From: Lysobacteraceae bacterium CU05-9
GTDB lineage: Bacteria; Pseudomonadota; Gammaproteobacteria; Xanthomonadales; Xanthomonadaceae
Reading direction: 5' to 3'
Assembly (NCBI GenBank): GCA_007556525.1
Contig: SWJS01000005.1
Span: forward strand, 62,001 to 126,000
DNA: 64,000 nucleotides
This document shows, piece by piece, positions 19,850 through 37,792 of this stretch. The translations under genes and the position numbers were made by a program. Under the pieces are notes generated by a model, which was not told where the DNA came from, ran no database searches, and worked only from the letters and a program-made list of their open reading frames with translations. Numbering within the stretch: the stretch's first letter is position 1; each line of letters begins with the position of its first letter.

Positions 19850-21253
19850 TCATACCCAACCCGTCGCGTAGTAGATTCCGATCACGACGAATACCGCCAA
19901 CGTCTTGATGATCGTCACCGCAAAAATATCCTTATACGACTGACGGTGCGAAAGTCCGGTCACTGCGAGCAGGGTGATCACCGCGCCGTTATGTGGCAGC
20001 GTGTCCATGCCGCCGGATGCCATGGAGGCGACGCGGTGCATGACTTCGAGAGGGATGCCGGCCGCTGCAGCGTTCGCCATGAACGTGTCGGCCATGGCGG
20101 CGAGCGCGATGGAGAGTCCGCCCGACGCCGAACCCGTGATGCCGGCGAGAGAGGTGACGGTCACGGCTTCGTTGACGAGCGGATTTGGAATGGCGTTCAG
20201 TGCGTTGGCGACGACGAGGAAGCCCGGGAGAGCGGCAATCACTGCACCGAAACCATATTCCGATGCGGTGTTCATCGCAGCGAGCAGTGCACCGCCGATG
20301 GCGGCTTTGCTGCCGTGGGCGAAATTGCCGATGACTTTTTTGCCGGCGAAAATAAACACCAACAAGATACCTGCAAGCAACGCACCTTCGACCGCCCAAA
20401 TTGCGGAGAGCTTCGACACTTCCTGCACGACTGGCGGCGTGTTCCCGATGATCGCAGGATCGAATGAAACCTCTTTGCCATAGACCTTCGGAATGTAATC
20501 AGTGAGCAACTTATTGATCACGCCGACGGCGATCAACGGCAAAATCGCAATGAAAGGATTCGCAAGGTTCGTGCTGTCGATTGGTTCTGGTTCGTTGAGC
20601 AAGGTTGCAGGATCGCCGTAGCCTTCGCCATTGGCTTTCGCAACGCGGCGGCGCCAGTCGAGATACATCAAGCCGAGAACGAGGATAAAAACACCGCCAC
20701 AAATGCCGAGGATCGGCGCAGCCCACGTGGTGGTTTCGAAGAAGGTTGTCGGGATGATGTTTTGGATTTGCGGTGTGCCCGGCAATGCGTCCATGGTGAA
20801 AGTAAATGCGCCGAGTGCGATCGTTCCAGGAATCAAACGCTTTGGAATGTTGCTTTGACGGAACAACTCAGCGGCGAATGGATAGACCGCAAATACAACG
20901 ACGAACAACGACACGCCGCCGTAGGTGAGCAACGCGCACACCGCGACGATCGACAACATCGCACGCGACTCGCCGAGCAGCTTGATGGATGCAGTGACGA
21001 TGGACTTCGAGAAACCCGAAAGTTCAATCACCTTGCCGAAGATGGCGCCGAGCAGGAAGACGGGGAAGTAGTTTTTGAGAAAACCAACCATCTTGTCCAT
21101 GAAGAGCCCCGAGAACATCGGAGCCACCAATTGTGGATCGGTCAAAAGCACCGCACCCAACGCCGCCACCGGCGCGAACAGAATGACACTGTGTCCGCGA
21201 TACGCAATCCACATCAGGAAGCACAGTGCGGCAAGGACGATTAGAAAGGACAT
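19850..21253 (-). CDS. GntP family permease, resembles D-beta-hydroxybutyrate permeases
   Basis: Inner-membrane transporter of the gluconate/hydroxy-acid GntP family with about 12-14 membrane segments across 467 residues. The N-terminal stretch LMWIAYRGHSVILFAPVAAL and the block YFPVFLLGAIFGKVIELSGF are closer in pattern to proteins named D-beta-hydroxybutyrate permease than to gluconate permeases. TGSASGGLSIALAAM and the PHNGAVITLLAVTGL block near the C-terminus are family hallmarks. ATG at 21253 is chosen because the protein then starts at the first membrane segment; an upstream in-frame start would add an unlikely 32-residue tail. It is divergent from a TonB receptor gene. Substrate is inferred. 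Confidence 0.85.
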   Translation of the reverse strand: MSFLIVLAALCFLMWIAYRGHSVILFAPVAALGAVLLTDPQLVAPMFSGLFMDKMVGFLKNYFPVFLLGAIFGKVIELSGFSKSIVTASIKLLGESRAMLSIVAVCALLTYGGVSLFVVVFAVYPFAAELFRQSNIPKRLIPGTIALGAFTFTMDALPGTPQIQNIIPTTFFETTTWAAPILGICGGVFILVLGLMYLDWRRRVAKANGEGYGDPATLLNEPEPIDSTNLANPFIAILPLIAVGVINKLLTDYIPKVYGKEVSFDPAIIGNTPPVVQEVSKLSAIWAVEGALLAGILLVFIFAGKKVIGNFAHGSKAAIGGALLAAMNTASEYGFGAVIAALPGFLVVANALNAIPNPLVNEAVTVTSLAGITGSASGGLSIALAAMADTFMANAAAAGIPLEVMHRVASMASGGMDTLPHNGAVITLLAVTGLSHRQSYKDIFAVTIIKTLAVFVVIGIYYATGWV

Positions 21254-21426
21254 GCAAAAATCCGAAGTCGGCAATTGATGTTCTCTAGTGTGGTTGTGCG
21301 CGCGAAATGTGCACATTGTCCGAAAGGACAACTGCCAGAATGCAAACACTTTGTTAACGTTGACCTGTCCCTGACCGAGGATGGTCGGGCTTGTTGAATT
21401 ATTTTTTGGAACATTGAGGAAATCAT

Positions 21427-23679
21427 ATGCGTCGCGTCATCAACACACGTCATGCGCTTTGCCTGGCAATTCTGGGTGCACTGGTCGCCGCTCCGGCGAT
21501 GGCACAGGATTCCGGTTCGGCTGCAGGTAGCTCGGATTCGGATCAGCAATCGAGCGAAGTGAAATCGATCGGTAAGGTCAAGGTGACGGCACGTAAGCGT
21601 GACGAAACGTTGCAGGAAGTTCCCGTAGCAGTGACCGCCTTTACGCCGGAACGCCTGGAAACGCTGAACATCCAGGACCTCGGTGACCTCGGCCGTCAAG
21701 TCCCTAACTTGACTGTCTATGCAGCGCGCGGTTCGAGCAGCACGATCACGGCATACATCCGTGGTATCGGTCAGTCCGATCCACTGTGGGGCGTTGATCC
21801 GGGCGTTGGCTTGTATCTCGACGACGTCTACATTGCACGTCCGCAAGGTGCGTTGCTTGACGTGTTCGACGTTGAGCGCATCGAAGTGTTGCGCGGTCCG
21901 CAAGGTACTTTGTATGGCAAAAATACCATCGGCGGCGCCATCAAATACATCTCGAAGGATCTGCCCCGCAAGACGAATGGTTTTGCATCGTTGACGGTTG
22001 GCAACTATGGTCAAGCAGACGTCAAGGCTGCGATCGGCGGTCCAATTCTGGGTAGCGAAAATCTTCGCGCCCGTCTCTCGGTTGCCAGCTTGCACCGTGA
22101 CGGCTTCGGCGAAAATCTGACGAACGGTCAACCGGTCAGCGACAAGGAAATCCTTGCAGCTCGCGGTGAACTCGGCGCATTTGCAAGCGAAGCGTTTGAC
22201 GTCAAGTTTGCATTCGACTGGATGAAGGATCGTTCGGGCGTCCGCGGTGCGAAAATGTTGGCAGTCAATCCTTTGGCGCCAAGCTACAAACCGCTTGATA
22301 GCCGTTATGACATCCGCAGTGGCATGGACAACATCAACGACACGGACATGAAGGGCATCAGCGCGACCGCGACCTGGCGTCCGAATGCAGATTGGGCTGT
22401 GAAGTTCGTGACGGCAAAGCGTGAGTCGGATACGTCAACGTCGATCGACTTCGATACCCTGCCAGGCAAGTTCGTTGACGTGCACGCCAAGTATTACGAC
22501 GAGCAAGTCAGCAACGAATTGCAAGTCAACTACGATGCCGGCGGACGCTTCCGCGGCGTGTCAGGTCTTTATCACTTCAACGGTGAAGCCGGCGGTCAAG
22601 TGCTGAACTACTTCTACAACCCATTGGCAGCGCCTAGCCTGACGAACCCATTGTTCGGTGATACGCAAGGTAAGGTCATGACGAAGCAGCTCGCTGTCTA
22701 TACCGACTGGACCATCGACGTCACCGACAAGTTCAACATCAACACCGGCGCGCGCTGGACGGAAGAAGAGAAGCATGCGATTGCCTTGAACCGCTTCTAC
22801 ACGACGCCACAGTATCCGAATCCGACGGTCAGCATTCCGTGGGGCACTGCTGCGAACTTCAACAAGACGAAGACATTCAAAAACATCTCGCCGAAGTTGG
22901 TTGTGAATTATCAGTTCACGCCGGACATCATGGCCTATGCGTCCGCAACGCGTGGCTTTAAGTCAGGTGGCTACAACATCCGTGCCAACACCACGGCAGT
23001 TCCGCGCTCCGGTGAACCATTCCTGGATGAAACGGTGGACAGCCTGGAGCTGGGTTCGAAGATGAGCTTCATGGATCAACGCTTGTTCGTGAACATGGCG
23101 TACTTCCACAACAACTACAAGGACATCCAGCTGTCGGTGTTCACCGAGTACACGCTGCCAAACGGCACGAAGAGCTTCTTCGGTGACTTCACCAACGCGG
23201 GTGCCGGGAAGATCAGCGGTTTCGAACTGGAAACGCAATTCCTGCCGAGCGACCGTTGGGTGATCAGCAGCAACATGTCCTGGTTGAATTCGAAGTACAC
23301 CGAATTCATGACCAATAACATCAACGTTGCGGATTCACAGCACTTCACCAACGCGCCGAAGTTCCAGGGTTCCGTGAACGTTGAACACCGCATGCCTTTG
23401 GCGACTGCGGGTGAGTTGGCGGCACGCGTCAGCTACAGCTACCAAGGCGCTGTGTGGCCAACGACGGACCTGTCGCCGGCAATCTATCAGGAAGGCTACG
23501 GACTGTTGAATGCGGGTCTGATCTGGCGCAACAAGCCATGGACCGTTTCGTTGCAAGGCACGAACTTGCTGGATGAGGAATACCGCACGACGGGTTACAA
23601 CATTGCCGCTTACGGTGTGTTGACCGGATTCTATGGTGCGCCACGTCAGTATTCGTTGACGGTCCGTTACGACTTCTGA
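21427..23679 (+). CDS. TonB-dependent outer-membrane receptor
   Basis: Energised outer-membrane importer of 750 residues. A signal peptide (cleavage after APAMA, residue 26) is followed by a short acidic Ser-rich linker, the plug domain (VTARKRDETLQEVPVAVTAF, RGPQGTLYGKNTIGGAI) and a 22-strand barrel ending in the typical terminal Phe (SLTVRYDF). The plug is of the Caulobacter/Xanthomonas carbohydrate-and-small-nutrient type rather than a classic siderophore receptor, but the substrate is unknown. ATG at 21427 has GAGG upstream. It is divergent from the GntP permease and followed by the CrbS-like kinase, suggesting uptake of a small hydroxy acid or its oligomer. Confidence 0.93.
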   Translation: MRRVINTRHALCLAILGALVAAPAMAQDSGSAAGSSDSDQQSSEVKSIGKVKVTARKRDETLQEVPVAVTAFTPERLETLNIQDLGDLGRQVPNLTVYAARGSSSTITAYIRGIGQSDPLWGVDPGVGLYLDDVYIARPQGALLDVFDVERIEVLRGPQGTLYGKNTIGGAIKYISKDLPRKTNGFASLTVGNYGQADVKAAIGGPILGSENLRARLSVASLHRDGFGENLTNGQPVSDKEILAARGELGAFASEAFDVKFAFDWMKDRSGVRGAKMLAVNPLAPSYKPLDSRYDIRSGMDNINDTDMKGISATATWRPNADWAVKFVTAKRESDTSTSIDFDTLPGKFVDVHAKYYDEQVSNELQVNYDAGGRFRGVSGLYHFNGEAGGQVLNYFYNPLAAPSLTNPLFGDTQGKVMTKQLAVYTDWTIDVTDKFNINTGARWTEEEKHAIALNRFYTTPQYPNPTVSIPWGTAANFNKTKTFKNISPKLVVNYQFTPDIMAYASATRGFKSGGYNIRANTTAVPRSGEPFLDETVDSLELGSKMSFMDQRLFVNMAYFHNNYKDIQLSVFTEYTLPNGTKSFFGDFTNAGAGKISGFELETQFLPSDRWVISSNMSWLNSKYTEFMTNNINVADSQHFTNAPKFQGSVNVEHRMPLATAGELAARVSYSYQGAVWPTTDLSPAIYQEGYGLLNAGLIWRNKPWTVSLQGTNLLDEEYRTTGYNIAAYGVLTGFYGAPRQYSLTVRYDF

Positions 23680-23706
23680 TTGAAACCTTTGTGAGTGGGG
23701 TGGGTG

Positions 23707-23740
23707 ACGGCAGACTTCGGTCTGCCGTTGTCTTTTTTGG
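23707..23740 (+). terminator. Terminator after the TonB receptor
   Basis: ACGGCAGAC and GTCTGCCGT form a stem with a TTCG tetraloop, followed by TGTCTTTTTT. Confidence 0.88.
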
Positions 23741-23770
23741 GTATCCTGATTTGATGAGATTTGACGTTTC

Positions 23771-26700
23771 GTGCCCGTGCCAAGTTTGCTGACCGTTGCC
23801 CTCGCATGCCTGACCTGGCTTGCGATCATGTTTGCGATTGCGCGCTGGGCTCAGCGTAACCCGCCGGCATTTTCGAAGCATTGGGCGTGGGTGTATGCGT
23901 TGTCCTTGGCGATTCACTGCACGTCGTGGACGTTTTATGGAACGGTGACGCAAGCGGCGCGTTCGGGTTGGTGGATACCGCCGACGTTTATCGGTGCGAT
24001 TTTGCTGTATGTGCTCGGCTTTGGCTTCATGCGCAAGTTGATCGAGATCGGTCGGGCGAATCACTCGAGTACGATTGCGGATTTCGTGGCAACAAGACTG
24101 GGCAAAAATGTTCCTCTCGCCGCCCTCATCACGCTCGTCGCGATCATCGGCATGGTTCCTTACATTGCGTTGCAGTTGAAAGCGGTAGGCAGTAGTTTCG
24201 CCATGCTTACGCATGCAAAGGCGAGTGTTGCGCAAGGTCCGTGGTATCTGGACATCGCATTGTATTGCGCGTTGGCAATGGCGCTGTTCGCAATTTTCTT
24301 CGGCGCGCGCGAAGCCAATGCTTCCGCGCATAACCGCGGCTTGGTCATGGCGATTGCGTTTGAGTCAGTGTTCAAACTCTTCGCGATGCTTGTCGTGGGA
24401 TTGTTCGTAGTCTTGATGATTCCGGAGGCGCCACTGGCATCAATTCCACCGGTTGATCGTAATTTGGATGGATTTGCGCCGCAGATTTTGTTGGGTGCGA
24501 TGGCAATGTTCATCCTGCCGCATCAATTCCATATGGCGGTCGTTGAAAGCCGTTCAATGTCGCAGACGAAACTCTCGCGCTGGGTTTTGCCGTTGTATCT
24601 GCTGTTGATTGCGTTGCCGGTTTTGCCAATTGCGATTGCAGGTCAGCGTTGGCTTGGTGCTTCCGGAATTCCCGCCGATCTGTACGTTCTCGCATTGCCG
24701 ATGGAACAGGGGTCAAGTTGGGTCGCGTTGTTGGCGTTCCTCGGTGGGATGAGCGCGGCAACCGGAATGGTCGTTGTCAGTACATTGACCTTGAGCTTGA
24801 TGGTGATCAACCACTGGATCACGCCGGCGTTGTTGCGCGGTGTTTGGCTGCGTGCAGAAGGTCAGGATCTGAGTCGTCGCGTGATCTGGGCACGTCGCGT
24901 TGCGATTGTGTTGATGATGTATCTGGCATGGCTTTTCAGTCGCACGGTTGGCAGCAATTCCGCACTTGCAGACGTGGGTGCGCTGTCATTCAGTGCGATG
25001 GTGCCGCTGATTCCGGCGGTTTTGATTGCAGTGTACCGTCCTCAGACATCGCCGCGGGCGGTTGCCTTCGGCATCATCGCTGGCTTGCTCACATGGATGT
25101 GGGTCAATGTCGGTGGGCGCCTTCTTCCGAATTTGGAATGGCATGGGATTTTCAATGCATTGACGCCATCGCATTGGATGGGATTGGGTCAATGGAGTCT
25201 GCTGGCGAAGGGTGTCGTGTCATCGCTTGTCGTGAGCTACTTCGCGACGTTGTTTGCGCAGCCCTTCCTCAGCCAACGTCCACAGCGCGACACGGAATCC
25301 GCATGGCAGGTTCGACAGTTGCGTGAGCTGACAGCACGTTTCTTGAACGAAGCAACTGTCGTGGATTTATTCAAGGGCTTTGGCAACAACGCGCTGGTGC
25401 CGATGCAGCTGGAAGCTCAAGTGGAATCGGAATTGGCGAAGGTGCTCGGCAGCTCTTCCGCACGCTTGTTATTGGATGCCGCACAAAACGAACAAAGCCT
25501 TCGCATTGAAGACGTCGCGCAGATCGTTGACGAGTCACGCGTCGACTTGAAGTTCAATCAAACGGTTCTAGAGGCAGCGCTGCGAAACATGACGCAGGGA
25601 ATCAGCGTTGTTGATCGCGATCTTCGTTTGGTCGCATGGAATCCCCGGTATGCCGAATTGTTCGGCTATCCCGAGGAATTGTTGCAGGTTGGCCAGCCGG
25701 TTGCGGACCTTGCACGCTGGGCGATTGAGCAGACGCGTCCGGATGTCACCAACATTGATAAGGCCATTGAGCGCCGTCTCGCATACATGCGCGCTGGAAC
25801 GACGCATTTGTCAGAGAGAGTTTTTCCGGATGGCAGCCGCATTGAGATCCGCGGAAACCCAATGCCCGGTGGAGGCTTCGTCGCGACGTTCACGGATGTT
25901 ACGGAGTTCCGCAATAACGAAACAGCATTGAAGGAAATCAATGAGTCGTTGGAGTCGCGCGTCAGTGAACGCACGCAAATGCTGGCGGATGCGAAGCATG
26001 AAGCAGAGTTGGCGAACGAAGCCAAAACACGTTTCATGACCGCCGTTGGCCACGATCTCATGCAACCGCTGCACGCCGCGCAATTGTTTGCTGATGGTCT
26101 CGACAGTTATCTGCAACGTCAAGCATTGCATGATCACGAACCGGTCAAGCGCTTGAAGGACATTCGCGGTGCGTTGGGTTCAACGACCGAGTTGTTGCAA
26201 GGCTTGCTCGAGATGGCGAAGTTGAAGTCCGGTGGATTGAGCGCAAACGCACGCCCGCAACCATCGCGCGACGTGACCGATCCTTTGGCTTCAGAGTTTG
26301 CGGCAATTGCGGCCGATAAGGGTTTGACATTTTCTTACTCGCCAAGTGAAGAATGGATTCGCGCGGATGCGATGTTCGTGAGGCGTATTTTGCAAAATTT
26401 CCTGTCCAACGCCGTTCGTTATTCACGACGCGGCGAGATCGCGTTGATTGTAAGTGTGTCCGAAGATCACCTGCGAATTGAAGTGCGGGATCAAGGCGAA
26501 GGCATTGCGGTTGAGGAGCAGGGCGCGATTTTTGAAGAGTTCCGCCGTGGCGAAAATGCCGCAGAAAATGGCCTTGGTCTAGGTCTTTCCATCGCGTCGG
26601 GTTTAGCAGAGTTGATCGATGCGCGAATCGGCATGCGCAGTGTTGTTGGCGAAGGGTCGACGTTTTGGGTGGATATCCCAACGGCTGTGATGGACGTTGC

Positions 26701-27109
26701 GCGAACTGCCAATGTCTTAAGCGGCAATCATCATGGCGTCAGTGAGATTTTGCTCATCGACAATGATCAACCAACGCGCGAAGCATTGGGTTCAATGTTG
26801 AGCGAGTGGGGGCATGCGGTGCGCGTCGGCGACGGTAATGACTACGCGCAGATTCGTGAGGATGCGAAACGCGCACACGTCTGGCTGTTCGATTATCACC
26901 TGGACAATCAGGCGACCGGTGTTGGCTTGTATGAATTGCTGGTCGCTGAAATGAAAGCGAAGCCGACTTTGATTCTCACTGCGGACATTAGCGACTCAGT
27001 TCGCGCGCAGTGTCAGGAGTTGGGATTGATATTGGTGAGCAAGCCAATTCGTCCGCTCGCGTTGAAGTCCGTTTTGTCGCGATTGATCTCAGCGAGTCAC
27101 GCAGGCTGA
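23771..27109 (+). CDS. Hybrid sensor histidine kinase with sodium/solute-symporter domain, CrbS/MxtR-like
   Basis: An 1112-residue fusion. Residues 1-500 form a sodium:solute symporter-like domain with about 13 membrane segments (WAWVYALSLAIHCTSWTFYG near 38-57 is typical). A PAS domain (about 595-715) precedes a coiled coil (KEINESLESRVSERTQMLAD), an HisKA domain with His761 in AVGHDLMQPLHAA, an HATPase domain (FLSNAVRYSRRGE, ENGLGLGLSIA) and a receiver domain with Asp1041 in WLFDYHLDNQ. This order is that of CrbS/MxtR kinases, which control acetate use with a LuxR-type partner, and such a regulator gene lies convergent and overlapping by 13 bases. GTG start at 23771. Whether the symporter part transports is unknown. 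Confidence 0.88.
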   Translation: MPVPSLLTVALACLTWLAIMFAIARWAQRNPPAFSKHWAWVYALSLAIHCTSWTFYGTVTQAARSGWWIPPTFIGAILLYVLGFGFMRKLIEIGRANHSSTIADFVATRLGKNVPLAALITLVAIIGMVPYIALQLKAVGSSFAMLTHAKASVAQGPWYLDIALYCALAMALFAIFFGAREANASAHNRGLVMAIAFESVFKLFAMLVVGLFVVLMIPEAPLASIPPVDRNLDGFAPQILLGAMAMFILPHQFHMAVVESRSMSQTKLSRWVLPLYLLLIALPVLPIAIAGQRWLGASGIPADLYVLALPMEQGSSWVALLAFLGGMSAATGMVVVSTLTLSLMVINHWITPALLRGVWLRAEGQDLSRRVIWARRVAIVLMMYLAWLFSRTVGSNSALADVGALSFSAMVPLIPAVLIAVYRPQTSPRAVAFGIIAGLLTWMWVNVGGRLLPNLEWHGIFNALTPSHWMGLGQWSLLAKGVVSSLVVSYFATLFAQPFLSQRPQRDTESAWQVRQLRELTARFLNEATVVDLFKGFGNNALVPMQLEAQVESELAKVLGSSSARLLLDAAQNEQSLRIEDVAQIVDESRVDLKFNQTVLEAALRNMTQGISVVDRDLRLVAWNPRYAELFGYPEELLQVGQPVADLARWAIEQTRPDVTNIDKAIERRLAYMRAGTTHLSERVFPDGSRIEIRGNPMPGGGFVATFTDVTEFRNNETALKEINESLESRVSERTQMLADAKHEAELANEAKTRFMTAVGHDLMQPLHAAQLFADGLDSYLQRQALHDHEPVKRLKDIRGALGSTTELLQGLLEMAKLKSGGLSANARPQPSRDVTDPLASEFAAIAADKGLTFSYSPSEEWIRADAMFVRRILQNFLSNAVRYSRRGEIALIVSVSEDHLRIEVRDQGEGIAVEEQGAIFEEFRRGENAAENGLGLGLSIASGLAELIDARIGMRSVVGEGSTFWVDIPTAVMDVARTANVLSGNHHGVSEILLIDNDQPTREALGSMLSEWGHAVRVGDGNDYAQIREDAKRAHVWLFDYHLDNQATGVGLYELLVAEMKAKPTLILTADISDSVRAQCQELGLILVSKPIRPLALKSVLSRLISASHAG

Positions 27110-27777
27110 CCGTTCTCGCGAAGATGACGCGACGGATCGGTAAGTTCGAGTTCGCGTAAGACGACGCCGGCTTGCGTGCGATTCCGGACACCGAGCCGAT
27201 CAAAAATCGCCGACACATGCGCTTTCACTGTGCGTTCCTGCACGCCGAGTCGATCTGCAATTTGCTTGTTCAACAAGCCGTCGGCAACCATCCGCAAAAC
27301 ACGGAATTGCTGTGGCGAGAGACTCGCGAGCTTTGCAGACATCGCGGCATCTTCCGAAGCCGTTTCCGTGCGCATCACTGCGGCCTTCAACGAAGCAGGC
27401 AGCCATTGCTCCAAATTCATGACGGACGTGATGGCGGCGTTGAGGTCGTCGAGACCGGAACTTTTTGGCAGAAAACCCGCCGCGCCATAATCCAACGCGC
27501 GCCTCACGACGGTTGGATCATCATTTGCGGAAACCACGATCACCGCGACCATCGGATACTGCGCACGAATTGCCGCAAGACCTGCGAGGCCATGATTGCC
27601 GGGCATGTGCAAATCCAACAAAATCAGCTCAATCTCCGGCTGCTTATCGAGCACTGCGAAAACGCTGTCGAGCGTATCGGCTTCAAAGGTTTCGACGCCT
27701 TCCATCGATTCCGAGGCGACCGTACGCAACGCGGTGCGAAACAGCGGGTGATCGTCGGCAATGAGGATTTGATGCAT
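27097..27777 (-). CDS. LuxR-family response regulator, CrbR/ErdR-like
   Basis: Receiver plus LuxR helix-turn-helix regulator, 226 residues from the ATG at 27777. The receiver has ADDHP at the N-terminus, phospho-acceptor Asp55 in LILLDLHMPG and the Lys in GFLPKSS. The C-terminal HTH reads LSPQQFRVLRMVADGLLNKQ and VKAHVSAIFDRLGVRNRTQA. An upstream in-frame GTG at 27798 is possible. It faces the symporter-kinase gene tail to tail with a 13-base overlap, and is its probable partner: CrbS-type kinases act through exactly this class of regulator, switching on acetyl-CoA synthetase in characterised species. Confidence 0.85.
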   Translation of the reverse strand: MHQILIADDHPLFRTALRTVASESMEGVETFEADTLDSVFAVLDKQPEIELILLDLHMPGNHGLAGLAAIRAQYPMVAVIVVSANDDPTVVRRALDYGAAGFLPKSSGLDDLNAAITSVMNLEQWLPASLKAAVMRTETASEDAAMSAKLASLSPQQFRVLRMVADGLLNKQIADRLGVQERTVKAHVSAIFDRLGVRNRTQAGVVLRELELTDPSRHLRENGQPA

Positions 27778-27863
27778 AGCGGTTAGTGTAACAACCACAT
27801 CCTGAATTGCATTGTGGACTTTAGGACTATTGCGGCGTCTGCTGTATGGTTTAGGCTAAATGC

Positions 27864-29615
27864 ATGAAGATGCCAAAACTGACTGTTTTTTCCATCGCCA
27901 TCGCGACTGCTTTCGCTCTTGCGGGTTGTGCGACGCTCAATGAATCCACCAAGCTAGGCCGCGCCGCCGTGACGACTCTCCAGCAGCAAACAAACACTTA
28001 CGATGATCTCCTGACGGCAGGGCTCGACGCTGCAATGTTGCGCAACCCGGTCGGCCCCACGTTTGCGAATCCTGCTGCTCCGACTGCCGCCGAATTGCGC
28101 CGCCGCTCGATCTGGTCGAGTTGGCGCGGGATCTACAACGTTGCCAGCAGGGATCTCGATGCATTGCTCGCCAGCAGTGGCAAAATTCCTGGCCGCGAAT
28201 TTTCCGCGATTGCCCAGCTTGCAGGAAGTACTTCGACACATCGCGTACTGACGCAAGTTCCTGATAGCTTCAATCAACAAAATCGTTGTTTAATCGTCGC
28301 CCCATCATCCGGCAGCCGTGGCGTCTACGGTGCAATTAGCGTTGCCGCGCCTTGGGGTTTGCCGAAGGGTTGTGCGATTGCCTATACCGACAAGGGAACG
28401 GGTAGCGATTATTTTGATGTCGACACTAAAACGGGTGCTGATCTGAGTGGCGTTGTGAGCTCGGGTGATGCGCGTGTTTTCGTGCCGAATGTTGCTTCAA
28501 CTGTCCGTCCGCATGAAGTTGCTTTCAAGCACGCACACTCCCAACAAAATCCCGAAGCCGACTGGGGTCGCTTCGTCGTCCAGGCTGCTGAGTTTGGCCT
28601 GGCATCGCTGACCGAAGCATTTCCTTCGCAGACTCCGTTTACCTGGGAAAACACTCGTGTCATCGCGGTCGGCATCTCAAACGGTGGCGGTGCAGTTCTT
28701 CGTGCTGCGGAAGAGAAGGGCGCGAACTTCGCCGCGGTTGTCGCCGGTGAGCCACAAATTCACGTCACTGGCCACAACAGTGTCCCGCTCTACGATTACT
28801 CGATCGAAGCCGCCACGCTGATGGCCTGCGCGCAGCTCGCATTGCCGGAAGACAAATTGCCGCAACCACCATTGCTCGCCCAAGCCAAACCGTTGATGGG
28901 TCTTTGGTGTCAGCGTCTCAAGATGGCCAATGTCCTGCAAGGTAATGATGTCGCGGCACAATCCGCCGAAGCACTTCAGAAGCTCAAAGCCCGCGGTTGG
29001 AACGAGGGTGCCATTGCGGCTGGGTTTGCGTCGACGGGTTTTGACCTTTGGCGTTCGGTACTGGCGGGTTACGTCAGCGCTTACGCGAAAGCACCAGTCG
29101 GTGCGAATCCGTGTGGTTTCTATTACACGCCGCAGGACGCCGAGATGAAGCCACGCGCCGCGACCAATGCAGAACGTGCGATGTGGTGGACGGATTCAAG
29201 CGGGATTCCAACGGGCGCCGGCGTGAACTTGCGTCACGACAACCCGGACATCTACTCGCAAATTCAATGCCTTGCCGAAAAGCGCAACGATCCAACGGTC
29301 ACCGCATCCATCAACGCAACGCTCGGCCACAAGCCGGCAGATGATAAGCTGCCGGTGTTCGTCGTGCATGGCAAGTCAGATGGTCTCGTGCCGATTCATT
29401 ACTCGAGCATTCCGTATGTCGAAATGGTTCGCGCATCCGGACATTCGCGGATTAGTTTTTGGCAAATCGAAAATGCACAACACTTCGACGCGTTCCTCGC
29501 ATTCCCTGGCTACGGTGACAAGTTCGTCCCACTCCTGCCGCACGTTTACAAAGCACTCGACGCAGCGTGGAGCACAGCAACAACCAACGCTCCGATGCCG
29601 ACAGACGTCAACTGA
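27864..29615 (+). CDS. D-(-)-3-hydroxybutyrate oligomer hydrolase, lipoprotein
   Basis: Hydrolyses short 3-hydroxybutyrate oligomers, products of polyhydroxybutyrate depolymerisation, to monomers. The 583-residue protein starts with a lipoprotein signal (FALAGC, lipid Cys22), so it is exported. The catalytic serine is Ser272 in VIAVGISNGGGAVLR, the family's lipase-like box, and the downstream VFVVHGKSDGLVP block and a His near NAQHFD provide the other triad candidates. It is shorter than the roughly 700-residue enzymes of betaproteobacteria. It is transcribed away from the CrbR-like regulator, and completes a set with the hydroxybutyrate-type permease 6.6 kb upstream. Confidence 0.85.
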   Translation: MKMPKLTVFSIAIATAFALAGCATLNESTKLGRAAVTTLQQQTNTYDDLLTAGLDAAMLRNPVGPTFANPAAPTAAELRRRSIWSSWRGIYNVASRDLDALLASSGKIPGREFSAIAQLAGSTSTHRVLTQVPDSFNQQNRCLIVAPSSGSRGVYGAISVAAPWGLPKGCAIAYTDKGTGSDYFDVDTKTGADLSGVVSSGDARVFVPNVASTVRPHEVAFKHAHSQQNPEADWGRFVVQAAEFGLASLTEAFPSQTPFTWENTRVIAVGISNGGGAVLRAAEEKGANFAAVVAGEPQIHVTGHNSVPLYDYSIEAATLMACAQLALPEDKLPQPPLLAQAKPLMGLWCQRLKMANVLQGNDVAAQSAEALQKLKARGWNEGAIAAGFASTGFDLWRSVLAGYVSAYAKAPVGANPCGFYYTPQDAEMKPRAATNAERAMWWTDSSGIPTGAGVNLRHDNPDIYSQIQCLAEKRNDPTVTASINATLGHKPADDKLPVFVVHGKSDGLVPIHYSSIPYVEMVRASGHSRISFWQIENAQHFDAFLAFPGYGDKFVPLLPHVYKALDAAWSTATTNAPMPTDVN

Positions 29616-34231: not shown

Positions 34232-34878
34232 AGTTTCAGGACGATGACAGAGAAGCTTTCTTCGATGTCGTTCTCAAGCGCTTCGAACGCCAACGTGTCC
34301 ACCATTTCCTGAGCGGAACATTCGCGGTCCTTGAGGATCTCCGTTGCGCGAGGCGTGCCGACTAACGGAACGACGGCATCGCTGCTGATGAGGATGCGCG
34401 AATAGTTAGCGGCATTGAAGCTCACTTGAGCAACGTGCAAACGTGCTGCATCCGTCACTCCCAATGCCATCGTTCGGATTGAAGTTGGTGTTGCGGCATC
34501 CGGGACAGTGAGTTCAACCCACTCGCCTTTCGCATTGATTCCGAACGCACGGGTGGCACCCACCCATCCCAAGTTCAAGGATTGGGTCGCTTCGTCACGT
34601 TGCAAAATAATGGCGCTGGTTCCGCGCAAGTTCGATTTCGATTTGGGGACTGCGCAAACGGCTTGATCTGCCGTACGGATGGCGTCTTCGATCGATTGAC
34701 CCATGCGCAAGGATTTCTGCAATGATTCGCGCGCTGCATTCGCCGCAACTTCGCCGCAGCCTTCACCGCCGATTCCATCAAGAATCATCCAAAAACCAAG
34801 CTGCCCATTCCCCGTATACGTACTTTCGTTGCAAACCTTAAGAGTGCCCGGATGGGACAGATGGCCAAATTCAATCAT
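34228..34878 (-). CDS. Divergent PP2C-like serine/threonine phosphatase domain protein
   Basis: A 216-residue protein with a PP2C outline: MILDGIGGEGCGEVAANAA corresponds to the DGMGGH block, GTSAIIL to the GTT strand, and ISSDAVV to the SDGL block. Several metal-binding acidic positions are changed: the first-motif NED is NES, the VGDSR motif reads VGATR, and the final DN is replaced near ENDIEESF. It may therefore be weakly active or a non-catalytic binding protein. It overlaps the Rrf2 regulator by four bases (ATGA) and so is co-transcribed with it, an unusual partner. Function unknown. Confidence 0.7.
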   Translation of the reverse strand: MIEFGHLSHPGTLKVCNESTYTGNGQLGFWMILDGIGGEGCGEVAANAARESLQKSLRMGQSIEDAIRTADQAVCAVPKSKSNLRGTSAIILQRDEATQSLNLGWVGATRAFGINAKGEWVELTVPDAATPTSIRTMALGVTDAARLHVAQVSFNAANYSRILISSDAVVPLVGTPRATEILKDRECSAQEMVDTLAFEALENDIEESFSVIVLKL

Positions 34879-35360
34879 TCAGATACTTTACCTGATTGCT
34901 TTTTCGGCTTCACGCTTCGCCTGGGTTTCGCGACGGGCTCGATTGGCCTCGGGAAGTAGGTCTCAATATTTGGACTCGCCGCGATCAGTTGATTCAGGGA
35001 ATACCCATCCAACACCTTCAAAAACGCATTCGTCGCTTCCGCTAACGGTTTGGGAATGCCGCACACGGGTGCAATCAAACAGCCGATACAGTCCACGAGC
35101 TGCATGTCCGGCTCCAGCGTGCGGACCAATTGACCCAGATTGATCTCGGAAGGTGGCTTGTTGAGCCGTAACCCGCCATTTCGACCGCGGGTTGCCTCCA
35201 CGATCCCATTTCCAGCCAATTTCTGGGCGACTTTGGCCAAATGATTGCGCGAAATACCGTACGAGTCCGCAATTTCGGCAACGGAAGCGACATCTTCACC
35301 TCGAACACCGAGGTAAAGGACGATTCGCATGGCATAGTCGGTAAAGCGTGTCAGCTGCAT
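34875..35360 (-). CDS. Rrf2-family transcriptional regulator, NsrR-like nitric-oxide sensor
   Basis: A 161-residue winged-helix regulator. The N-terminus MQLTRFTDYAMRIVLYLG and the recognition helix SYGISRNHLAKVAQKLA are those of NsrR, the Fe-S repressor of NO detoxification genes. Three cysteines, Cys91, Cys94 and Cys100 (DCIGCLIAPVCG), can bind the cluster but with CX2CX5C spacing, shorter than the CX8CX5C of classical NsrR. The segment after them (LAEATNAFLKVLDGYSL) fits NsrR. It is divergent from the NO reductase gene, whose promoter has an NsrR-type palindrome. The basic C-terminal tail is extra. Confidence 0.85.
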   Translation of the reverse strand: MQLTRFTDYAMRIVLYLGVRGEDVASVAEIADSYGISRNHLAKVAQKLAGNGIVEATRGRNGGLRLNKPPSEINLGQLVRTLEPDMQLVDCIGCLIAPVCGIPKPLAEATNAFLKVLDGYSLNQLIAASPNIETYFPRPIEPVAKPRRSVKPKKQSGKVSE

Positions 35361-35398
35361 AAGCGTTACATTCTAGTCAACGTGACGTGAATAAAGTG

Positions 35399-35428
35399 TT
35401 GACGAAACAGGTATTAAAAATACATAAT
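35399..35428 (+). promoter_or_regulatory. Promoter of norB
   Basis: TTGACG (35399-35404) as -35 and TACATAAT (35421-35428) as the -10 region, spacing 16-18. The NsrR-like operator fills the spacer, so a bound repressor would exclude polymerase. Confidence 0.55.
35409..35425. promoter_or_regulatory. NsrR-like operator
   Basis: AGGTATTAAAAATACAT; on the other strand ATGTATTT-TT-AATACCT, where one half equals the NsrR half-site ATGYATTT and the other matches five to six of eight positions. It lies between -35 and -10 of norB and upstream of the divergent regulator gene. Confidence 0.55.
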
Positions 35429-35524
35429 TTACTTAAAACTAAACGCGCAGTAAATATGCGGCTTGGTGAATTGAGTTTTTGGTTTGTTTAACGCTGTACG
35501 TCGTGCCTTTGGAGGGCGCATTTT

Positions 35525-37792
35525 ATGTCAACAACGAAACGCTTATGGTGGGGTCTCGGCATCCTGCTAGCGGCCAGCTTCGCGGTGATGCTTTGGCTAG
35601 GGGCCGATCTCAACCGCACGAAACCGCCAATCCCTGGCAAAGTCGTCACGACGAGTGGCCAGACTCTTTACACGCACGCGGACATCATGGAAGGCCAGAA
35701 GGTTTGGCAATCCATGGGTGGTATGCAACTGGGCTCCATCTGGGGTCACGGTGCGTTGGTTGCTCCGGACTGGTCCGCTGACTGGTTGCACCGCGAGAAG
35801 ATCGCGGAGCTCGATGCTTCGGCAGCGAAGCTCGGTGCCAAGAATTTCGAATCCTTGAACGCCGGTCAACAAGCGCAACTGACTGCAGACCATAAGGACG
35901 CGTTCCGTAAGAACACGTACGATCCGGCAACTGATACGCTGACGATTACTGACGAACGTGCAGCGGCAATCGCCGTTGTCAGTCAGCATTACGATGAAGT
36001 GTTCTCGGACAATCCGGCCGGTGCTCAGCTTCGCGAAGATTACGCGATGAAGAACAACACGATTTCGGATCCGGAACGCCGCAAGAAGTTGAATGCGTTC
36101 TTCTTCTGGACGTCATGGGCTACCACGACGAACCGTCCGAACTCGGATAAGGTGACGTACACGAACAACTGGCCATATGAGCCATTGGTCGGCAACCATC
36201 CTGCCCCAAGTACCTTCATGTGGTCGTTCTTCTCGATCCTGTTCCTGATCGGTGGCGTTGGCTTGCTGACGTGGCACTATGCCGGTTGGCAGCGTCATGA
36301 AGAACCTGCAGTGATTCCTGACAAGGATCCACTGGCCGGTTTGAAACCAACACCTTCGATGAAGGCAACGGCAAAATACTTCTGGGTCGTGATCGCGTTG
36401 ATGCTCGTGCAAATCGCACTGGGTGCAACGACGGCTCACTACCAAGTTGAAGGACAACATCTGTATGGTCTGAACCTTTCGGACATCCTGCCGTACAGCT
36501 TGACGCGTTCGTGGCACACGCAACTCGCGGTGCTCTGGATCGCGACGGCATGGCTTGCAACCGGTCTTTACATTGCACCGGCGGTGGGTGGGCATGAGCC
36601 GAAGTTCCAGCGACTTGGCGTCAACTTCCTGTTCACCTGCTTGTTGATCATTGTCGTCGGCTCGTTTGCCGGTCAGTGGTTTGCAGTCATGCAGAAGATG
36701 GGACTGGCTGAGAACTTCTGGTTCGGTCACCAAGGTTGGGAATACACCGACATCGGTCGTTTCTGGCAAGCCTTCCTGTTTGTTGGATTGTTGGTCTGGC
36801 TGGCTCTGGTAAGCCGCGCGCTGTGGCCTGCGATCAAGGCGAAGGATGAAAGGTCGTCCATCGTGTTCCTGCTGTTCCTGTCGTCGGTTGCAGTCGCCCT
36901 GTTCTACGGTGCCGGTCTGTTCTGGGGCAGCGAGTCGCACATCTCGATCGTTGAGTACTGGCGCTGGTGGGTTGTCCACCTGTGGGTTGAAGGCGTGTTC
37001 GAAGTCTTCGCAATCGCAGTGTTGGCATTCCTATTCGTGCAGTTGGGCTTGGTCCGCGGTAAGACTGCGACGGTCAACGTTCTTTTTGCAACGATCATTT
37101 ACCTCGCCGGTGGCGTGCTCGGTATGTTCCACCACTTGTACTTCGTCGGTACGACGACGGCAGGTGTGGCACTGGGTGCATCGTTCTCCGCACTTGAAGT
37201 CGTTCCATTGGCTTTGATCGGTATGGAAGCCGTCGAAAACTGGCGCCATTCCCGCTCGACTCCGTGGATGCAGAAGTACAAGTGGCCAATCATGTTCTTC
37301 CTTGGCGTTTCGTTCTGGAACCTCGTGGGTGCAGGCTTGTTCGGCTTCCTCATCAATACGCCACTGGCGCTGTACTACATGCAAGGTCTGAACTTGACCC
37401 CGCTGCATGGTCACACGGCATTGTTCGGTGTGTACGGCATGTTGGCAGTTGGTCTGATGCTGTTCTGCATGCGTGGACTGAAGGGCGAGCAAGCATGGAG
37501 CAATGGTTTGCTGCGTGCATCGTTCTGGGCGTTCAACATCGGCTTGATGCTGATGGCATTGCTGACGCTGTTGCCAATGGGTGTCCTGCAGTTGAATGCG
37601 GCACTTGAGCACGGCTACTGGTATGCACGTTCGGCTGAGTTCATGAACCAGGCAATCATCGACGTCCTCGTTTGGATGCGTATGCCGGGCGACTTGATCT
37701 TCGCAGCAGGTTCGATCCTGTTGGCGTTGTTCGTCGCAGGTCTGTGGCTGTGGCCGAAGAAGATGACCGCGGAAGACGTCACTCCGCAGTAA
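35525..37792 (+). CDS. norB: Quinol-dependent nitric oxide reductase (qNOR, single-subunit NorB)
   Basis: Reduces 2 NO to N2O at the cytoplasmic membrane with electrons from quinol. The 755 residues include the N-terminal extension of the qNOR class, a membrane segment at residues 8-26, a large periplasmic domain (about 40-225) and a catalytic part with about 13 membrane segments. Heme ligands are among the conserved His residues of SWHTQLAVLWIA, WRWWVVHLWVEGVFEV and GMFHHLYFVG. ATG at 35525 follows GGAGG. Without other denitrification genes nearby, it most likely detoxifies NO under the adjacent NsrR-like repressor. Confidence 0.96.
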   Translation: MSTTKRLWWGLGILLAASFAVMLWLGADLNRTKPPIPGKVVTTSGQTLYTHADIMEGQKVWQSMGGMQLGSIWGHGALVAPDWSADWLHREKIAELDASAAKLGAKNFESLNAGQQAQLTADHKDAFRKNTYDPATDTLTITDERAAAIAVVSQHYDEVFSDNPAGAQLREDYAMKNNTISDPERRKKLNAFFFWTSWATTTNRPNSDKVTYTNNWPYEPLVGNHPAPSTFMWSFFSILFLIGGVGLLTWHYAGWQRHEEPAVIPDKDPLAGLKPTPSMKATAKYFWVVIALMLVQIALGATTAHYQVEGQHLYGLNLSDILPYSLTRSWHTQLAVLWIATAWLATGLYIAPAVGGHEPKFQRLGVNFLFTCLLIIVVGSFAGQWFAVMQKMGLAENFWFGHQGWEYTDIGRFWQAFLFVGLLVWLALVSRALWPAIKAKDERSSIVFLLFLSSVAVALFYGAGLFWGSESHISIVEYWRWWVVHLWVEGVFEVFAIAVLAFLFVQLGLVRGKTATVNVLFATIIYLAGGVLGMFHHLYFVGTTTAGVALGASFSALEVVPLALIGMEAVENWRHSRSTPWMQKYKWPIMFFLGVSFWNLVGAGLFGFLINTPLALYYMQGLNLTPLHGHTALFGVYGMLAVGLMLFCMRGLKGEQAWSNGLLRASFWAFNIGLMLMALLTLLPMGVLQLNAALEHGYWYARSAEFMNQAIIDVLVWMRMPGDLIFAAGSILLALFVAGLWLWPKKMTAEDVTPQ

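Follow-up and report, generated by a model that had tools for sequence, protein, structure and literature searches.

How fragments of polyhydroxybutyrate (PHB), a biodegradable plastic that bacteria commonly lay down as a carbon reserve, might enter a Gram-negative cell is the question raised by a five-gene locus in Lysobacteraceae bacterium CU05-9; in the literature searched, we found nothing on the passage of larger PHB fragments across the outer membrane of such cells. The locus lies in a stretch of 64,000 nucleotides (assembly GCA_007556525.1, contig SWJS01000005.1, positions 62,001–126,000 of the forward strand), which we analyzed as a whole and refer to as the window. It encodes a permease, a TonB-dependent outer-membrane receptor, a CrbS-like sensor kinase with a CrbR-like response regulator, and a 3-hydroxybutyrate (3HB) oligomer hydrolase. 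A preliminary description of this DNA had grouped the five genes into one scavenging system, a grouping now borne out by the recurrence of the same gene set in relatives, whether these are approached from the receptor or from the hydrolase. Judging from sequence, this is probably a CrbR-controlled PHB-oligomer utilization locus with a dedicated TonB receptor.

The five genes and their products

All five open reading frames (ORFs) are present in the window's ORF listing where the preliminary description had placed them, and together with domain profiles the listing supports them as real genes. The hydrolase (27864–29615, + strand) matched PF10605 decisively (E = 3.5e-109; 366.5 bits against a cut-off of 27). 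Its Ser272 was identical in all 127 aligned hydrolases, the window's included, and the likely triad partners Asp506 and His540 were each conserved in 126 of the 127. A lipobox read from the sequence (LAGC) places a lipid-bearing cysteine at residue 22, so that the lipoprotein with Ser272 and Cys22 described earlier stands. A structure model built from 21 aligned sequences (mean predicted local distance difference test score, pLDDT, 73.5; predicted TM-score, pTM, 0.80) was an alpha/beta hydrolase. Its nearest solved structures in Foldseek included feruloyl esterases, CalA-type lipases and MHETase, at low TM-scores (0.24–0.39 of the query among the best 50 matches), and a second structure aligner returned lipases, acylpeptide hydrolases and PETase (best Z of 18.7 over 310 residues, root-mean-square deviation 3.7). 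The predicted fold fits an ester hydrolase, the substrate not being shown by the fold. A lipobox was scored in 64 of 85 hydrolases linked to receptor or CrbS/R loci versus three of 18 outside them, by a heuristic and uncorrected for relatedness; among the 15 outside hydrolases scored as lacking one, at least two (L127 and L133) show one by eye. Four hydrolases of family f12 that lie outside the receptor locus (L141, L142, L144 and L145) have no visible signal sequence, as if intracellular.

The receptor (21427–23679, + strand) has a plug (PF07715; 2.2e-19, 70.4 bits) and a barrel (PF00593; 2.1e-40, 140.3 bits), both above cut-off. Its best NCBIfam match was a siderophore family, at 167 bits and below the cut-off of 223.5, and its nearest solved structures by sequence were mostly siderophore, haem and vitamin B12 receptors. 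In a tree with 19 other receptors of the same genome as outsiders, the locus receptors clustered in two lineages; the tree was made by a quick method with long branches flagged, and the grouping is partly by construction because the receptors were gathered by similarity to the window's. Both lineages hold the same position in the locus, even within the window's own family (L102 and L098), and the second, only 32%–39% identical to the window's receptor, occupies the same place by the hydrolase.

The permease (19850–21253, − strand) is the proposed inner-membrane carrier of 3HB. Its earlier label as a GntP permease has indirect support: the window protein itself matched no Pfam or NCBIfam model, and neither did that of the close relative L097, whereas three more distant permeases of such loci passed the cut-off of GntP_permease PF02447 (L155, 1.9e-10; L185, 8.2e-11; L112, 3.3e-5). 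The protein therefore appears GntP-like through its relatives only. Its start is probably the ATG at 21253 and not the GTG at 21349, to which the longest form of the ORF reaches.

The kinase gene (23771–27109, + strand) encodes a hybrid protein whose residues 5–457 matched PDB 10ED (8.4e-48), a chain named as the SLC5-STAC part of CbrA in the available excerpt of a preprint (PMC13022988). PAS, HisKA, HATPase and receiver domains follow in the second half; PAS and HATPase exceeded their Pfam gathering scores, and HisKA (24.8 vs. 26.9) and the receiver (25.5 vs. 30.2) fell slightly below. The LuxR-type regulator gene (27097–27798, − strand) is convergent with the kinase gene and overlaps its end. 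Its best NCBIfam model was ErdR, a synonym of CrbR (NF041830), which it matched with 223.8 bits against a curated cut-off of 390. These matches uphold the earlier reading of a CrbS-like symporter-kinase with a LuxR-type partner, with the regulator's best model below its cut-off. A terminator-like hairpin with a 14-bp stem and a T run lies 3′ of the receptor gene (23702–23738, + strand; RNA folding energy −19.7 kcal/mol, z = −4.57), and the two genes are therefore probably transcribed separately from each other, receptor and kinase each on its own transcript.

Conserved linkage among relatives

We surveyed 200 genomes of the window's order, its own genome included, and found PF10605 in 109 and a receptor match at E ≤ 1e-100 in 85. 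Receptors closely related to the window's (class A, scoring at least 800 bits) were found in 37 genomes, at 38 places apart from the window's own, and all 38 neighborhoods were read, a few of them on short contigs. CrbS was nearby in 34, the permease in 29, CrbR in 27 and a polyester hydrolase in 29, and every one of the 38 had at least one of CrbS, CrbR and the permease. The co-occurrence of receptor, hydrolase and permease in the order, which the preliminary description had suggested as a check, is thus found in relatives, and the opposite outcome that it had named, the receptor's closest relatives lying beside unrelated genes, was seen in none of the 38. PF10605 was present in 35 of the 38 genomes with a class-A receptor (own genome included) versus 74 of 162 others (Fisher p = 5e-8, uncorrected for relatedness); in those 35, receptor and hydrolase were less than 12 kb apart in 21, far apart on the same contig in two and on different contigs in 12. 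Because class-B receptors were reached via hydrolase loci, the presence of a hydrolase at 28 of 29 of them is by construction, and the class-A count alone is free of this. Permease counts pool the close kind with a more distant kind (∼200–380 bits to the window's).

In three genomes without PF10605 (G086, G023 and G047), the receptor lies beside a type-1 polyhydroxyalkanoate (PHA) depolymerase, assigned by similarity in all three; the one scanned, in L108, scored 280.9 bits against the NF050058 cut-off of 150. The partner enzyme varies between loci while the polyester theme persists. This variant locus (L108, L109 and L110) also encodes CrbS/R, an acyl-CoA ligase and one more alpha/beta hydrolase, and perhaps serves another polyester or hydroxy acid.

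Starting instead from the hydrolase, we read 103 loci from 99 genomes, 79 of which had at least 8.9 kb on each flank. Genes of relatives were called by scoring all stop-to-stop ORFs, as longest-ORF calling lost real genes in GC-rich relatives. Some partner was present in 68 of the 79 full-flank loci: CrbR in 56, the receptor in 41, a 3HB dehydrogenase in 38, CrbS in 36, the permease in 31, a type-2 PHB depolymerase in 19 and phaE in 10 (in L098 and L174 the receptor is cut by the edge of the stretch and was counted as none). The receptor frequency of 52% compares with chance values of ∼6%, 13% or 29% for 10, 25 or 60 receptors per 3.5-Mb genome. Representatives of the additional partners passed their models: two dehydrogenases TIGR01963 (358.2 and 328.9 bits vs. 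307.05), a depolymerase NF050059 (316.3 vs. 280) and a PhaE TIGR01834 (209.6 vs. 154.95). The usual order, seen in families f1 and f12 and in one f3 genome (L122), is permease (−), receptor (+), sometimes the depolymerase, CrbS (+), CrbR (−), sometimes the dehydrogenase, and hydrolase (+). Some f1 and f9 genomes carry receptor and CrbS on the opposite side of the hydrolase, and f8 loci have receptor, hydrolase and sometimes permease with no CrbS/R. The window's locus is a compact form with neither dehydrogenase nor depolymerase inside.

The PF10605 hydrolases of Ralstonia and Cupriavidus include the extracellular enzyme of strain A1 and the intracellular PhaZ2/PhaY (literature cited in PMC7830162). 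They share with the present enzyme the family and the conserved serine, aspartate and histidine; the hydrolase here differs in that it is a lipoprotein whose gene neighbors that of a TonB receptor. No such receptor was seen at any of 23 distant hydrolase loci gathered by similarity from other groups, some with short flanks, and on the sampling made here linkage to the receptor is therefore particular to this order. A class-level sample of 369 genomes contained PF10605 in 11; seven of these 11 lie outside the order, and one of the seven hydrolases is a fragment.

Operator-like repeats upstream of receptor and hydrolase

A de novo motif search found repeats of the GTAC-N4-GTAC type upstream of the hydrolase and, independently, upstream of the receptor; palindromic symmetry was built into the search and is therefore no result in its own right. 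With equal starts, the motif scored 455.7 for the hydrolase (dinucleotide shuffles, 56 and 57) and 535.4 for the receptor (62 and 68). When the matrix from each set was applied to the other, 51 of the 67 sequences upstream of receptors and 52 of the 103 upstream of hydrolases passed the 99% level of simple shuffles, and 51 and 55 that of dinucleotide-preserving ones. The repeat tracked CrbS/R closely. Upstream of the hydrolase, it was present in 54 of 72 cases with CrbS/R in the stretch versus one of 31 without (dinucleotide shuffles; 52 of 72 vs. 0 of 31 with simple shuffles), and upstream of the receptor in 48 of 51 versus three of 16 (both shuffle types), all uncorrected for relatedness; the receptor exceptions with a repeat and no CrbS/R were L114, L116 and L121 in the simple-shuffle version. 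Shared upstream motifs, which had been suggested as a check on the grouping, are thus present as a common repeat at hydrolase and receptor.

In the window, a perfect inverted repeat (TTGTCC-GAAA-GGACAA, 21315–21332) lies between the divergent permease and receptor genes and is our proposed CrbR operator. It ranked first of 63,983 window positions under both the hydrolase- and the receptor-trained matrix; these were re-estimated without the window, though the starting matrix had included it. A weaker candidate site (GGAC-N4-GGAC, 27813–27830) between the divergent crbR and hydrolase genes coincides in position, by eye, with the strong site that relatives have. The kinase upstreams yielded another, weaker motif.

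The de novo repeat resembles the published CrbR (ACTU) motif, whose inverted repeat is imperfect and is matched by, for instance, TACTACCATCGTCGAAT (PMC5715377, in excerpt). Fixed patterns drawn from four published ACTU sites occurred in the window at chance (six vs. 5.56 expected; 24 vs. 24.65 expected). Among relatives, the ACTU-type pattern was present in 25 of 104 hydrolase upstreams (shuffles: mean 10.8, largest 20) and in 16 of 77 crbR upstreams, barely above shuffles (mean 7.6, largest 16); in receptor, kinase and permease upstreams it did not exceed them. We claim no genome-wide CrbR regulon. The acs-like gene of the same genome had no good repeat match upstream, and for this reason the role of CrbS here may concern this locus and not acetate metabolism at large. 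The acs-like gene itself (L236), which scored 262 against the acetoacetyl-CoA synthetase cut-off of 521, lies directly behind another two-component pair, a short kinase and a LuxR-type regulator that by eye is not CrbS/R. Two fair repeat matches (12.5 and 10.7; L235:2235-2303) lie ∼70–140 bp upstream of the CoA-transferase gene; they are no more than suggestive, as both fall within a cystathionine-synthase-like coding region, near its end.

A proposed route and its alternatives

We propose the following route. Depolymerases of other organisms would free 3HB oligomers, and many relatives encode one in the same locus. The TonB receptor would draw the oligomers across the outer membrane, import of 3HB oligomers being our best inference for its role from sequence context; the hydrolase, as an outer-membrane lipoprotein, would cleave them to 3HB; and the GntP-like permease would carry 3HB into the cytoplasm. 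There, it would be converted to acetoacetyl-CoA by a 3HB dehydrogenase and a CoA-transferase of the SCOT type, the genes for which lie elsewhere in the genome. CrbS, through its SLC5-type half, may sense 3HB, acetoacetate or acetate as a product of the route, and CrbR would bind the inverted repeats between the receptor and permease genes and between crbR and the hydrolase gene; as with transport, ligand and signal, we infer this binding and the direction of control.

The remaining enzymes have candidates in the genome. A 3HB dehydrogenase at C11:11260-12012 (318 bits) was the sole one above cut-off among 10 matches and lies 78 kb away; it is followed directly by a patatin-like DUF3734 protein (G000:C11:11260-13197; L213:11257-13197). 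A SCOT/PcaI-type CoA-transferase subunit is encoded at C15:13693-14337, its partner subunit adjacent by eye. A secreted depolymerase is likely absent: no NF050059 type-2 enzyme was found in the genome (the search found none in control genomes either), and two PF10503 matches, barely above the 23-bit cut-off (27.5 and 23.4), resemble general esterases by eye. Elsewhere in the window (34875–37792), an Rrf2/NsrR-like regulator gene is, by eye, divergent to a quinol-type nitric oxide reductase gene.

Several observations weigh against this route. Of the 79 full-flank hydrolase loci, 38 have no receptor and 11 no partner at all, and the receptor is missing from the distant loci noted above. The site at 27813 is weak, ranking only 12th (hydrolase-trained) or 21st (receptor-trained) of the 63,983 positions. 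A whole-genome scan for the strict repeat gave 11 places versus 13 for the reversed control and thus no enrichment, and each of the 11, even the one at the receptor, overlaps a stop-to-stop ORF. Sigma-70-type promoters numbered zero in the locus region versus 4.7 expected from shuffles. Small 3HB oligomers might also cross porins without any TonB receptor. Finally, a class III PHB synthase is encoded in this genome (TIGR01836, 513.8 bits vs. a cut-off of 365.3), so the substrate could be endogenous.

The last point underlies a reading in which the locus handles the cell's own PHB, recovering 3HB or oligomers that leak out or come from lysed sister cells, coupled to the PHB cycle. Besides the synthase gene, which by eye has a PhaE-like ORF adjacent, the presence of phaE in the same cluster in 11 of 19 f1 loci speaks for it. 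The receptor and the lipoprotein hydrolase, however, are envelope proteins that intracellular granules would not need, and the scarcity of the heuristically scored lipobox in unlinked hydrolases would fit separate secreted and intracellular forms; we think this reading distinctly improbable. We also regard as unlikely, if a more serious contender, that the receptor carries other cargo (an iron chelator, haem, a vitamin or another polyester such as cutin or medium-chain PHA) and shares only its regulation with the 3HB genes. The siderophore, haem and B12 receptors among its nearest solved structures, the sub-cut-off siderophore model, the nine of 38 class-A loci without a nearby polyester hydrolase, and the three genomes in which its neighbors include an acyl-CoA ligase and a further alpha/beta hydrolase, which would fit other hydroxy acids, all point that way. 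Against this, a polyester hydrolase accompanies 29 of the 38 class-A receptors (neighbors were not searched for iron-uptake families), and a second receptor lineage holds the same place by the hydrolase. That CrbS/R is an ordinary acetate switch merely adjoining hydroxybutyrate genes, in a cluster without joint function, seems very improbable: the characterized CrbS/R of Vibrio and Pseudomonas do control acetate use (acs, actP; PMC5715377, in excerpt), but the receptor and hydrolase repeats here occur almost only with CrbS/R and the acs-like gene lacks a good site.

We return to PHB-oligomer utilization through a dedicated receptor as the probable function. A more far-reaching version, which we advance tentatively and at somewhat less than even odds, adds that the receptor is dedicated to storage-polyester oligomers, that CrbS was recruited from acetate sensing to detect a breakdown product of PHB, and that the streamlined 2.35-Mb genome has lost the secreted depolymerase retained at this locus by many relatives and would live on oligomers set free by others.

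TonB-linked polymer-utilization loci are familiar from the polysaccharide utilization loci of Bacteroidetes and from proteobacterial carbohydrate loci. The present locus resembles them in its clustered receptor, envelope hydrolase, inner-membrane carrier, sensor and shared operator-like sites, and the clustering of receptor, hydrolase, carrier and regulator is conserved. It differs in that the proposed substrate is a polyester and in that no SusD-like protein is among the five genes. The best reading is that it belongs to this kind, with a polyester as the proposed substrate. TonB receptors have likewise been suggested for uptake of polymer breakdown products in Steroidobacter cummioxidans 35Y, where they are listed for rubber-oligomer import; the polymer there is polyisoprene, and the available excerpts of that source describe no such locus (PMC5979037). 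The CrbS/CrbR (MxtR/ErdR) systems of Pseudomonas and Vibrio, as far as the excerpts describe them, share the SLC5-type hybrid kinase and the LuxR-type regulator, and the repeat found here resembles their ACTU motif; the genes proposed to be controlled here are those of a receptor, a permease and a polyester-oligomer hydrolase, and the regulator scores below the ErdR cut-off. With most subscription papers outside the scope of the search, we found no description of such a locus and nothing linking "TonB-dependent" with "hydroxybutyrate oligomer"; papers joining TonB-dependent, PHB depolymerase and 3-hydroxybutyrate (PMC12542648 and PMC5979037) contained no such locus in the parts available.

The conserved set of receptor, hydrolase, carrier, sensor and candidate operator names genes and supplies a testable substrate. 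If the proposal is true, CrbS/R would reach beyond acetate to another type of substrate, and polymer-utilization loci would come to include ones for polyesters.

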